A DNA stretch of 36,831 nucleotides from Chloroflexota bacterium (GTDB lineage: Bacteria > Chloroflexota > Dehalococcoidia > UBA2247 > RBG-13-53-26), in the NCBI GenBank assembly GCA_016876035.1, contig VGOE01000020.1:1-36831 (forward strand). The letters run 5' to 3'. The notes beneath the pieces are model-generated. The model was not told the DNA's origin. It did not search any database and saw only the letters and a program-made list of their open reading frames with translations. The translations under genes and the position numbers were made by a program. Positions 19,272 to 23,512 of the stretch are shown here, piece after piece; within the stretch, counting starts at the first letter, position 1, and every line of letters starts with the position of its first letter.

Positions 19272-19301
19272 TTGACAAATAGGCTGAAGGCACTATATAA
19301 T
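19272..19301 (+). promoter_or_regulatory. consensus sigma-70 promoter of the surface-protein locus
   Basis: A perfect TTGACA (19272-19277), an 18-nt spacer and a perfect TATAAT (19296-19301). It is the best promoter match found in the window and predicts strong expression of the downstream surface protein, with a leader of about 115 nt. Confidence 0.75.
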
Positions 19302-19424: not shown

Positions 19425-22262
19425 ATGCCTAGTAATCCAGCGAAGTGGTTCGGTCACAGTAAGCGTCTGAGCCTGATTCTCCTGGTAGCTCTTTTCCTGG
19501 TGATAGCGCCTGTAGTGGCAGTAAACGTGCTGAACCCAGGCGGGGCGAAGGCTCATATATCGCCCGCCCCGCCCCCCGACCCCAATACCGCTTCGGTAGC
19601 CATCGGCCTTAGTGCCTACAAGATGCCCGGGGAGCTAATTATCCCCCCGGCCACGGTCACTCATGGCGATGTGGTGAAGTACAAGGTAACCCTTTCTTTC
19701 GGGGCCGTACCACCTGGAGGGGTGGGATACGATTTCCAGAGTGGCCAAGTCAAAGTGACCTTGCCCAACGGTACTGTGGTAGAGGTGGCTGGCTTTGGCG
19801 GGGCTACGCCTGATGTGCCTCTGATAACTGCCGCTACTCCCTGGACTGTTGAGGTACCAGTGCTTTATACCGTAAACCTGGCGGACATGGTTGGCGGCAT
19901 GATTATTGCCTATGCTGCCTACGGGGTAGGGGTCGGCATACATCTAGAAAACGGTTATTTCCACAACGAAGAAGGCGATCCAGGGATGGAGCATCCACGG
20001 ACAGCCAGCGCCACCACGGCGAGCATGGTTACGCCTACCACGGGGAACCTGATAATCTACAAATACAATGATCTGAATGGGAATGGGAGTTGGGATGGTG
20101 GGGAGCCTTATTTGCCCGGTTGGTACTTTGACGTCACCGGGCCGCAGAACTTCCCGAATCAGATGACCGATGGCACGGGCAAGATCACTCTTAGCGGTAT
20201 TGCCACAGGTGACTACACTATCACGGAGAAGACGCCCCTGCCTGCGGGCTGGGTTAACACCGATCCGCCGGGCAGCCCGCCGTTAACAAAGCCAGCTACT
20301 GTAACCGATGGTGCGACCACTGAGATCAAGTTTGGGAACCGGCCATTAGGGACGCTGATCATCTTTAAGTTCAACGATCTCAATGGTAATGGGATACAGG
20401 ATGGTGCTGAGGGGCCGCTCTCTGGCTGGGACTTCACGGTAACGGGCGGGCCATCGCCTACCCCAGGGACGTACACTACCAATGGCAGCGGCCTGATAAC
20501 CATCACCGACCTGCTTCCGGGGGACTACACGGTAACGGAGACGCTGAAGGCCGGGTGGCGGAACACCAGTCCCGGTGGGGTGGCTCCGTATGTCAAGGTA
20601 GGGGCGGTGCCCACGGGTGGCAGTGTCACGGTGACCTTTGGCAACCAGCAGTTAGGCACGCTCATCATCTTCAAGTTCAACGACCTCAATGGCAATGGGG
20701 TACAGGATGGAGCTGATGGGCCGCTCTCTGGCTGGGACTTCGCGGTGACCGGCGGGCCATCGCCCACTCCAGGGCCGTACTCCACAGATGTTAACGGCCT
20801 GATAACCATCACCGGCCTGATTCCAGGGGACTACACGGTAACGGAGACGCTCAAGGCGGGATGGCGGAACACCAGTCCTGGTGGAGCGCCTCCGTATTCG
20901 AAGGTAGGTGTGGTGCCGGCTGGTGGCGATGTCACGGTGACCTTTGGCAACCAGGAGTTAGGGACGTTGATCATCTTCAAGTTCAACGACGTTAATGGTA
21001 ACGGGATACAGGATGGCGCAGAAGGGCCACTGGCAGGGTGGGCCTTCACGGTGACGGGCGGGCCGTCGCCAACCCCTGGACCGTACGTGACAGATGGTAG
21101 CGGCTTGATAACCATCACCGATCTGATACCGGGCTCATACACGGTGACGGAGACGCTGAAGGCTGGCTGGCGGAACACCAGTCCCGGTGGAGTGGCTCCG
21201 TATGTGAAGATAGGGGTGGTGCCGGCTGGTGGCAGTGCGACGGTTACCTTTGGCAACCAGGAACTGGGCACGCTCATCATCTTCAAGTTCAACGACCTCA
21301 ATGGCAATGGGGTACAGGATGGAGCTGATGGGCCGCTCTCTGGCTGGGACTTCACGGTAACGGGCGGGCCATCGCCTACCCCGGGGCCGTACACTACCAA
21401 TGCCAGCGGCCTGATAACCATCACCGGCCTGATTCCAGGGGACTACACGGTAACGGAGACGCTCAAGGCGGGATGGCGGAACACAAGTCCTGGTGGAGCG
21501 CCTCCGTATTCGAAGGTAGGTACGGTGCCCAATGGTGGCAGCGTGACGGTGACCTTTGGCAACCAGCAGCTAGGCACGCTCATCATCTTCAAGTTCAACG
21601 ACGTTAATGGTAACGGGATACAGGATGGCGCGGAAGGGCCTCTGGCGGGCTGGGCCTTCGCGGTGACGGGCGGGCCATCGCCTACCCCAGGGCCGTACAC
21701 TACCAATGCCAGCGGGCTCATAACCATCACCAACCTGATCCCCGGCGATTACACCGTAACGGAGACGCTACAGCCTGACTGGCAGTGCACTACCCTTAAT
21801 CCGCAACTAGGTACGGTGCCCGCTGGTGCCAGTGCCCAGGTTAACTTTGGCAATAGATACGTCAAGAAGACCTTGAAGATCTACAAGTTCAACGACCTCA
21901 ACGGCAACGGTGTGCCCGACGCGGGTGAGGTTGGCCTGGGAGGTTGGGAGTTCACTATCAGCGGCATAGGCAAGCGCATCACCGGTTCCGATGGCTGGAT
22001 AATCATCAACATCACCAATCCGGACATCTATAAGGTGACCGAGACGCTCAAGGCCAGTTGGCTGTGCACTACGGACAACCCGCAATTTGCTGACCTGATC
22101 AGCAATGACCTGGTGATCCTCTACTTTGGCAATGTGGAGCAGGTGGAACATCCGCCTCTGGTGCCGACTATAGGCATTTGGGGTGCGGCGCTCATGGCGG
22201 CTGCTTTTGCCGGCGCCCTGATCTGGGTAGTAGCTCTAAGAAGGAGACGCCAGACAGTATAG
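19425..22262 (+). CDS. secreted SdrD-B-repeat surface protein with IPTL-like C-terminal tail
   Basis: The protein has 945 residues. It has a signal peptide (basic HSKR, a hydrophobic stretch at about 15-34 and a probable cut after AKA at 41-43), a unique beta-rich domain at about 45-205 shared with the paralogue downstream, then seven SdrD-B-like repeats. Each repeat has an NDLNGNGxxDxxE-type acidic loop that probably binds calcium, followed by GDYTVTETLKAGW and VTFGNQ. Repeats 2-6 are nearly identical; the first and seventh are diverged. The tail VPTIGIWGAALMAA plus a hydrophobic stretch and RRRR resembles IPTL/PEP-CTERM sorting signals, implying membrane anchoring or processing at the surface. 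The ATG at 19425 is chosen because GGAGG lies 5 nt upstream; a longer frame starting at 19356 lacks a site and a signal-like N-terminus. No exosortase-type gene is in the window. Confidence 0.85.
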   Translation: MPSNPAKWFGHSKRLSLILLVALFLVIAPVVAVNVLNPGGAKAHISPAPPPDPNTASVAIGLSAYKMPGELIIPPATVTHGDVVKYKVTLSFGAVPPGGVGYDFQSGQVKVTLPNGTVVEVAGFGGATPDVPLITAATPWTVEVPVLYTVNLADMVGGMIIAYAAYGVGVGIHLENGYFHNEEGDPGMEHPRTASATTASMVTPTTGNLIIYKYNDLNGNGSWDGGEPYLPGWYFDVTGPQNFPNQMTDGTGKITLSGIATGDYTITEKTPLPAGWVNTDPPGSPPLTKPATVTDGATTEIKFGNRPLGTLIIFKFNDLNGNGIQDGAEGPLSGWDFTVTGGPSPTPGTYTTNGSGLITITDLLPGDYTVTETLKAGWRNTSPGGVAPYVKVGAVPTGGSVTVTFGNQQLGTLIIFKFNDLNGNGVQDGADGPLSGWDFAVTGGPSPTPGPYSTDVNGLITITGLIPGDYTVTETLKAGWRNTSPGGAPPYSKVGVVPAGGDVTVTFGNQELGTLIIFKFNDVNGNGIQDGAEGPLAGWAFTVTGGPSPTPGPYVTDGSGLITITDLIPGSYTVTETLKAGWRNTSPGGVAPYVKIGVVPAGGSATVTFGNQELGTLIIFKFNDLNGNGVQDGADGPLSGWDFTVTGGPSPTPGPYTTNASGLITITGLIPGDYTVTETLKAGWRNTSPGGAPPYSKVGTVPNGGSVTVTFGNQQLGTLIIFKFNDVNGNGIQDGAEGPLAGWAFAVTGGPSPTPGPYTTNASGLITITNLIPGDYTVTETLQPDWQCTTLNPQLGTVPAGASAQVNFGNRYVKKTLKIYKFNDLNGNGVPDAGEVGLGGWEFTISGIGKRITGSDGWIIINITNPDIYKVTETLKASWLCTTDNPQFADLISNDLVILYFGNVEQVEHPPLVPTIGIWGAALMAAAFAGALIWVVALRRRRQTV
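20349..21866 (+). repeat. five tandem 306-bp coding repeats
   Basis: Repeat starts are at 20349, 20655, 20961, 21267 and 21573, exactly 306 bp (102 codons) apart; the fifth is 294 bp long to the start of the diverged seventh protein repeat. Copies starting at 20655 and 21267 share the block TACAGGATGGAGCTGATGG, while those at 20961 and 21573 share GACGTTAATGGTAACGGG, giving an A-B-A-B pattern. Confidence 0.95.
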
Positions 22263-22282
22263 CCTGGCAATAAAGAAGGAGA

Positions 22283-22316
22283 GGTGAAGCCCCGCCTTTG
22301 ACGGCAGGGCTTCACC
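22283..22316 (+). terminator. hairpin after the large surface-protein gene
   Basis: GGTGAAGCCC and GGGCTTCACC form a 10-bp stem with a further GCC/GGC pairing inside the loop. No T-run follows, and the paralogue begins 80 nt later, so partial readthrough or attenuation is possible. A related hairpin follows the second gene. Confidence 0.6.
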
Positions 22317-22396
22317 GTCAATGGCTGTCTGCTTTTGCCCTGCCGGCAGTGAAAATCCTGGCCGGCAGCGGGCGGTATGAAGGAGGGAGGTGAGTC

Positions 22397-23434
22397 ATGT
22401 TCAGGAATTCATCCCAGTGCATTCGTCACAGCAGGTGGAGCTTCATCTTCATACTGGTAGCTCTCTCCCTGGTCATGGCACCTCTGGCAGCGCTGAACGT
22501 GCTGAATCCAGGGGAGGCTGGGGCTCATATATCGCCCCCCAATGCCAATACGGCTTCGGTAGCCATCGGCCTTAGTGCCTACAAGATGCCTGGGGAGCAG
22601 ATCATACCCCCAGCCATGGTCAGCAGCGGCGATGTGGTGAAGTACAAGGTAACCCTCTCCTTCGGCACCTTAGGAGTCGGGCAGGTGGGTTACAATTTTC
22701 AGAGTGGACAGGTCAAAGTTGTTCTACCCGACGGTATTACGGTCAATGTGGCTGGCTTTGGTGGGGCTACCCCGGATGTTCCTCTAGTAACCTCTGCTAC
22801 TCCGTGGACGGTTGATGTGCCAGTGACTTATACCGTGAACCCGGCGCACATGGTAGGCGGCTTCCTCATTGCCTACGCCGCCTACGGGGTAGGAGTGGGC
22901 GAGCATCCAGAGAACGGCTATTTTCATAACAGCGAGGGTCCACAGGAAATGGAGCATGCGCGGACAGCCAGCGCCACCACGGCGAACATGATTGCCCCGA
23001 CAACAGGGGAAACAGGGAACCTGATAATCTACAAATACAATGACCTGGATGGAGATGGGGGTTGGGATGTTGGGGAGCCGTATTTGTCGGGTTGGCATTT
23101 TAACGTCACTGGACCGCAGGTCTTCATAGATCAGGTGACCGATGGCACAGGTCGGATCGTCCTTAACGGTATCGCCACAGGTGCCTACTCCATTGTGGAG
23201 ACAAGCCTGCCGATGGGCTGGAAACATACGGATCCGGGCAGCCCGCCTTACCAGAAGGTCGCCACCGTGATCGCCAACCAGACCGCCGAGGTGAAATTCG
23301 GAAACCAGGAAGTGGAGCGGCATCCGCCTGTTGTCCCCACCATAGGTATTTGGGGCGCGGCACTCATGGCGGTTGCTTTTGCCGGTGCCCTGATCTGGAT
23401 AGTAGCTTTCAGAAATAGACGCCGGACAGCATAG
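22397..23434 (+). CDS. secreted surface protein with one SdrD-B repeat and IPTL-like tail
   Basis: The protein has 345 residues and is a short paralogue of the upstream gene. The signal peptide has the same length with a probable cut after AGA at 41-43, and the N-terminal domain is near-identical in layout (NTASVAIGLSAYKMPGE, GYNFQSGQVKV, VAGFGGATPDVP). A single SdrD-B-like repeat follows (LIIYKYNDLDGDGGWDVGE), then the tail VPTIGIWGAALMAVAF, a hydrophobic stretch and RNRRR. GGAGGGAGG lies 8 nt before the ATG. It lacks the five-copy repeat array, so it probably represents the ancestral length, or a minor cap subunit to the long protein's stalk; that role is inference. Confidence 0.85.
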   Translation: MFRNSSQCIRHSRWSFIFILVALSLVMAPLAALNVLNPGEAGAHISPPNANTASVAIGLSAYKMPGEQIIPPAMVSSGDVVKYKVTLSFGTLGVGQVGYNFQSGQVKVVLPDGITVNVAGFGGATPDVPLVTSATPWTVDVPVTYTVNPAHMVGGFLIAYAAYGVGVGEHPENGYFHNSEGPQEMEHARTASATTANMIAPTTGETGNLIIYKYNDLDGDGGWDVGEPYLSGWHFNVTGPQVFIDQVTDGTGRIVLNGIATGAYSIVETSLPMGWKHTDPGSPPYQKVATVIANQTAEVKFGNQEVERHPPVVPTIGIWGAALMAVAFAGALIWIVAFRNRRRTA

Positions 23435-23477: not shown

Positions 23478-23512
23478 GGAAAGCCCCGCCTCTGAGGGTG
23501 GGGCTTTCCTTT
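23478..23512 (+). terminator. intrinsic-like terminator after the surface locus
   Basis: GGAAAGCCCC and GGGGCTTTCC form a 10-bp stem, with inner CC/GG pairing, followed by TTT. It resembles the hairpin at 22283-22316, suggesting the hairpin was duplicated along with the gene. Confidence 0.75.

Follow-up and report, generated by a model that had tools for sequence, protein, structure and literature searches.

Tandem surface proteins of unequal length with IPTL-CTERM-type tails in a Chloroflexota genome carrying an XrtH-like exosortase fragment

Exosortase-type sorting is best known from outer-membrane bacteria and archaea, and Cys, Arg and His are the catalytic residues of the enzymes. The described system closest to the one reported here combines the IPTL-CTERM tail (TIGR04174/PF18203) with the exosortase XrtH (TIGR04177); the tail, which consists of P-x-h-x-x-W-G, a transmembrane (TM) helix and a basic cluster, has many unrelated carriers per genome, and the enzyme is adjoined by an XrtH-associated membrane protein. 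We have analysed a stretch of 36,831 nucleotides (the window; contig VGOE01000020.1, positions 1 to 36,831) from a member of the Chloroflexota, assigned by its GTDB lineage to the class Dehalococcoidia (assembly GCA_016876035.1; 2.53 Mb, 97.7% complete, 159 contigs), in which two adjacent genes code for a long (P0001) and a short (P0002) surface protein. Both proteins end in a tail of this general type, and the genome also contains an XrtH-like exosortase fragment with an adjoining homologue of the XrtH-associated membrane protein. We consider it likely that a single exosortase system of the XrtH/IPTL-CTERM type acts on both P0001 and P0002, which display the same head at two heights.

The two genes are tandem paralogues on the + strand, separated by 134 base pairs (bp) and each preceded by an AGGAGG-type ribosome-binding site. 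They share a layout of signal peptide, N-terminal domain (N-domain), repeats (seven vs one), the motif VPTIGIWG, a TM helix and an Arg cluster. A reading made earlier from the DNA letters alone (the sequence-only reading) had already recognised the coordinates, the signal-peptide layout, the paralogy with a shared N-domain, the SdrD-B-like repeats in their two numbers and the common tail, and all of this was borne out. The features (lengths in amino acids, aa) are as follows.

19425..22262, + strand: long surface protein P0001, ATG start, 945 aa (open reading frame and Pfam)
19425..19553, + strand: P0001 signal peptide, probable cleavage after AKA (sequence; hydropathy maximum 3.08 at residue 15)
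19584..20039, + strand: N-domain of P0001, predicted all-beta at low confidence
20043..22133, + strand: seven SdrD_B/CnaB-like repeats of P0001, period 306 bp, the last two 294 and 267 bp (Pfam SdrD_B, seven stretches)
22158..22259, + strand: P0001 sorting tail VPTIGIWG-TM-RRRR (profile search, shuffles)
22397..23434, + strand: short surface protein P0002, ATG start, 345 aa (open reading frame and Pfam)
22397..22525, + strand: P0002 signal peptide (sequence; hydropathy 2.52)
22547..23002, + strand: N-domain of P0002, with 78% identity to the P0001 N-domain
23015..23314, + strand: single SdrD_B/CnaB-like repeat of P0002 (68% identity to P0001 repeat 1, Lys/Glu/Asn triad, Foldseek)
23330..23431, + strand: P0002 sorting tail VPTIGIWG-TM-RNRRR (TIGR04174, profile search, shuffles)

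Identity between the two proteins is 51% in the leader and 80.6% in the tail, where VPTIGIWG is followed by a 19-residue hydrophobic helix (hydropathy 2.19 in P0001, 2.28 in P0002) and the Arg cluster. When P0002 was used as a genome-wide query, four more proteins were obtained that match mainly at the tail, and a tail profile added a fifth:

C113: 446 aa, FG-GAP repeats, VPTVSQWG
C13: 470 aa, SdrD_B, VPALSQWG
C5: 158 aa, DUF11-like, VPGLSRWG
C80: 473 aa, DUF11, VPGISSWG
C14: 222 aa, VPGISLWG (added by the tail profile)

Three of these five tails exceed the TIGR04174 cut-off (24.7, 33.5 and 23.2 bits vs 20.5) and also match PF18203. A profile built from the five tails outside the window, and searched against the whole genome, returned the tails of P0001 and P0002 as its next two matches (E 6.5e-6 and 1.9e-5), while the next non-tail match was far weaker (E 0.013) and contained an internal stop. 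When the window tails were shuffled in full, the real score was never reached in 10,000 trials; when the shuffling was confined to the nine-residue motif, it was reached in 2 of 4,000. In all seven proteins, the bodies of which are largely unrelated, V-P-x-h-x-x-W-G stands at a constant distance from the TM helix and the Arg cluster. A tail module common to many otherwise unrelated proteins is an established signature of sorting signals (PMC3237569). Seven largely unrelated bodies with one tail, together with the profile and shuffle results, therefore identify the tail as a shared module, and support its interpretation as an IPTL-CTERM-type sorting signal that is used across the genome by seven proteins or more. 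The tail had been called IPTL/PEP-CTERM-like; the genome-wide profile upholds the IPTL-CTERM half of that name, while the PEP-CTERM half has to be dropped, as there is no PEP motif, no TIGR02595 match and no PF09721 match in the genome. What is shared with PEP-CTERM/EpsH is the tripartite logic of the tail and the enzyme superfamily.

The lack of a match to PF09721, the EpsH-type exosortase model, is explained by the state of the exosortase gene in this genome, which is a fragment of 57 codons. The XrtH model TIGR04177 finds these last codons at the extreme end of contig C62 (E 2.2e-6; 29.8-30.4 bits, cut-off 86). They represent the C-terminal third of an XrtH-like exosortase, interrupted by the contig end; a search of the genome for the 5' part with the protein of a relative returned only the C62 fragment. 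The fragment exceeds the superfamily cut-off of TIGR04178 (25.8 vs 23 bits), is 46% identical to the full-length enzyme of a related genome (G003; E 4.5e-11) and, when aligned with relatives, is conserved in the motif columns N-x-x-R and H. In G003 and in a further genome (G004) the gene is intact and codes for 182 aa, with the Arg and His motifs aligned and a Cys motif (ECTS/ECTA) upstream; the products reach 79-82 bits to XrtH (82.4 and 79.5; cut-off 86) and 69-73 bits to archaeosortase B. In another family of the class, genome G292 carries a tailed protein and an enzyme that passes the XrtH cut-off (88.3 bits).

Directly after the exosortase fragment lies a likely partner gene:

Contig C62, L015:5533-6897: XrtH-associated membrane protein homologue, 454 aa

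The first helix and the last 100 residues of this protein match the gene that follows XrtH in G003 (44%, E 5e-22), and its match to the XrtH_assoc model NF041730 is weak (14.2 bits vs 35). Two CARDB domains are inserted in it (PF07705, E 2.9e-10), at a place that is occupied by no more than a short loop in the version of the relatives. G004 has three consecutive genes for a tailed protein (VPGVTTWG), XrtH and the partner, the tailed gene being directly upstream of the exosortase. The XrtH-like exosortase of which this genome shows a fragment is probably the enzyme that cuts the tails. The sequence-only reading had reasoned that a genome with neither a sortase-type gene nor another tailed protein would reduce the tail to a plain membrane anchor; both kinds were found, and the five other tailed proteins and the exosortase gene fragment support its proposal of an exosortase-type sorting signal.

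The pairing of tail and enzyme was surveyed in 294 genomes of the class, including the one studied here, with tail matches counted at E 0.02. An exosortase-family match was present in 46 genomes and a tail match in 11, seven of which have real tails as judged by reading. Exosortases occur in five of these seven genomes vs 41 of the 287 others (Fisher P 0.0013, an optimistic value because the tails were selected by reading; all 11 raw hits give P 0.017).

The repeats are about 102 residues long. Those of P0001 exceed the Pfam cut-offs (SdrD_B 151.7 bits in seven stretches, SpaA 127.2 bits), while the single repeat of P0002 taken alone does not (SpaA 17.7 bits, cut-off 23.1); it is, however, 67.7% identical to P0001 repeat 1, and its model (pLDDT 60-82 in this part) was matched by Foldseek to CnaB2 of Lactobacillus plantarum (TM-score 0.69 by target length), to SdrD and to pilins. 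Lys7, Asn9-Asp10, Gly13, Gly15, Asp18, Glu64 and Asn99 are invariant in all eight repeats; Glu64 sits in an E-box-like YTVTET, and the SdrD-type calcium loop DxNxNGxxD is conserved. By sequence the repeats resemble SdrD B-repeats, and with these and the CnaB domains of pilins and adhesins (PF17210, PF17802) they have in common a prealbumin-like character, the DxNxNGxxD loop, a counterpart of the pilin E-box and the Lys/Glu/Asn triad. SdrD B-repeats differ in having Val at the position of the Lys, and SdrD/CnaB proteins are anchored by LPXTG and a sortase, in place of the exosortase tail found here. At the level of sequence, the Lys-Glu-Asn set of isopeptide-forming CnaB domains is present in each of the eight repeats, and in combination with the calcium loop it suggests rods that are cross-linked within each unit by putative isopeptide bonds and stiffened by calcium. 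Repeats 2-5 of P0001 share 80-92% DNA identity, with a synonymous divergence (dS) of 0.18 between repeats 3 and 5. The repeat number of seven may be off, because the assembly is fragmented and the DNA of repeats 2-5 is so similar.

The N-domains of the two proteins are 77.8% identical over 158 aa (non-synonymous divergence, dN, 0.15; dS 0.69; dN/dS 0.22). The sequence-only reading did not recognise this domain, and Pfam, NCBIfam and the PDB indeed all lack a match. No relatives were found in GTDB contigs (by peptide pattern), in viral contigs or in plasmid records, and a search of the 293 other genomes of the class gave only three weak matches, all of which proved on reading to be unrelated proteins. 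A relationship to DUF11 is not claimed, as profile comparison gave a probability of only 18%. AlphaFold, run on a two-row alignment, produced models (pLDDT 25-39 in a longer construct, mean 43 for the domain alone) that are usable only as an indication of a probably all-beta structure. Judged from these searches the domain looks lineage-specific.

In the process that we favour, the signal peptide would direct the export of each protein, which the tail helix and the Arg cluster would then keep in the membrane; an XrtH-like Cys/Arg/His exosortase would then cleave at VPxhxxWG and transfer the protein to an anchor. The cultured Chloroflexota have mainly a single-membrane envelope with an S-layer (PMC10284905), and because of this a lipid anchor appears the likelier kind of acceptor, as made by archaeosortase A (ArtA), for which C-terminal lipid anchoring of substrates is known (PMC7157517). 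The repeats, with Lys/Glu/Asn as in isopeptide-forming CnaB domains and the calcium loop, would act as rigid rod segments, so that the pair would most likely display one N-terminal head at two heights, on about one and about seven rod units. The head would probably be an adhesion or surface-coat domain, a guess that we base on its position at the tip. A more far-reaching version, which we regard as rather unlikely, would have an XrtH-type system of single-membrane Chloroflexota anchor rod-like proteins to lipid, with the CARDB domains, acquired by the partner and extracytoplasmic, serving as receptor for the substrate or the envelope and the head representing a new lineage-specific fold.

Several observations weigh against the assignment to an XrtH/IPTL-CTERM-type system. 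The comparison with TIGR04174 had a divided outcome: three other tails of the genome pass, as described above, whereas the window tails miss the cut-off of 20.5 bits (P0002 8.1 bits; isolated tails 13.0 for P0001 and 8.5 for P0002). The exosortase gene is only a fragment, the position of the catalytic Cys falls in the absent part, and the C-terminus that is present scores slightly higher to archaeosortase B than to XrtH. Among the surveyed genomes, G005 and G174 have very similar tails (VPTLSQWG, VPTMSQWG, VPTVSQWG) and no exosortase other than one of a second subtype, and for the tails of G252 and G227 no exosortase was found in either genome; draft assemblies may be the cause of such mismatches. 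Under a reading that we think improbable, the tails would be plain C-terminal membrane anchors, alike through common descent or TM composition, with no enzyme acting on them. It could draw on the low scores of the window tails, on the lack of a full-length exosortase gene in the assembly and on those relatives that are tailed with no exosortase detected. It does not account for V-P-x-h-x-x-W-G at fixed spacing in seven unrelated bodies (SdrD_B repeats, FG-GAP repeats, DUF11 and others), nor for the XrtH-like gene and its partner gene in the same genome.

As to the relationship between the two proteins, the sequence-only reading had suggested that they form stalk and cap (or anchor) of one surface structure. 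Adjacent and probably co-transcribed genes would suit a single fibre of stalk plus cap or base, and Gram-positive pilins are built of the same CnaB-type repeats; yet the head domain is the same in the two proteins and each of them brings its own anchor tail, and class A-F sortases (PF04203), including the class C enzymes of pilus assembly, have no match in the genome at E 1 that could link subunits. We did not find support for this proposal and consider it very improbable. A possibility with more weight, although still the lesser one, is that tandem duplication has left redundant or phase-varying copies, the repeat number of which drifts by recombination with no division of labour. The similarity among repeats 2-5 indeed indicates recent turnover of units, and a similar GC-rich hairpin is found at both gene ends. 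Against this, the N-domains of both copies are under purifying selection despite their age (dS 0.69), and both copies have therefore been kept. We favour two independently anchored length variants as the simplest reading of the pair, because each protein has its own head and its own tail and there is no class A-F sortase match.

Compared with the described IPTL-CTERM/XrtH system, the present one deviates in VPTIGIWG tails that miss the cut-off, an enzyme known as a contig-end fragment, family relatives at 79-82 bits vs 86, and a partner into which two CARDB domains are inserted. Archaeosortase B with VPXXXP-CTERM (TIGR04144) and archaeosortase A belong to a related enzyme family and have single-membrane hosts, and the enzymes of the relatives show some similarity to archaeosortase B (69-73 bits); however, the tails described here lack the second Pro and the scores are far under the cut-off of 150. 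We regard the system as a slightly unusual variant of known exosortase sorting. If an XrtH-like system with several substrates is at work in Chloroflexota, the question arises of what the cut protein is attached to, and a long and a short protein that share the head and the type of tail would be a convenient natural test substrate.

The signals around the two genes are the following.

19272..19301, + strand: promoter-like site TTGACA-N18-TATAAT before the P0001 gene, 12/12 matches (consensus scan)
22283..22316, + strand: intergenic hairpin between P0001 and P0002, without a T-run on the + strand
23478..23509, + strand: strong hairpin followed by TTT after P0002, the probable terminator of the pair

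With a promoter-like site before the pair and a T-run hairpin after it, the two genes are likely to be on one transcript; the 12/12 score is a consensus match only, and the total of such hits in the region is at the number expected by chance. The GC-rich hairpins at the ends of both genes resemble each other. Another hairpin is present in the 5' leader of the P0001 gene (19319-19341), just past the promoter-like site, and no Rfam family matched this leader as a riboswitch.

Some additional observations were made in the other genomes of the class. Large FG-GAP/beta-propeller-like proteins of many similar repeats with the same kind of tail occur in two different families of the class, on contig C139 of G174 (L092) and on C113 of the present genome (L009). 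In G227, two tailed proteins (VPTLTQWG and a canonical IPTLSEWG) are encoded on one short contig (C100, L091), in a genome where no exosortase was found; this could reflect recent transfer, a gap or contamination. The second exosortase subtype, which is about 205-210 aa long and has its Cys in a CLGG motif, was seen at L018, L021, L022 and L088 (G005, G008, G174) and also at L019 and L020 (G007, G006); none of the members scanned reaches the cut-off of any named exosortase subfamily model. Beside it, twice in G005 and once in G008, is a gene for a secreted protein with a different tail (VFP[SN]IY, TM helix, RRR), and the two are a candidate for a separate enzyme-tag pair.

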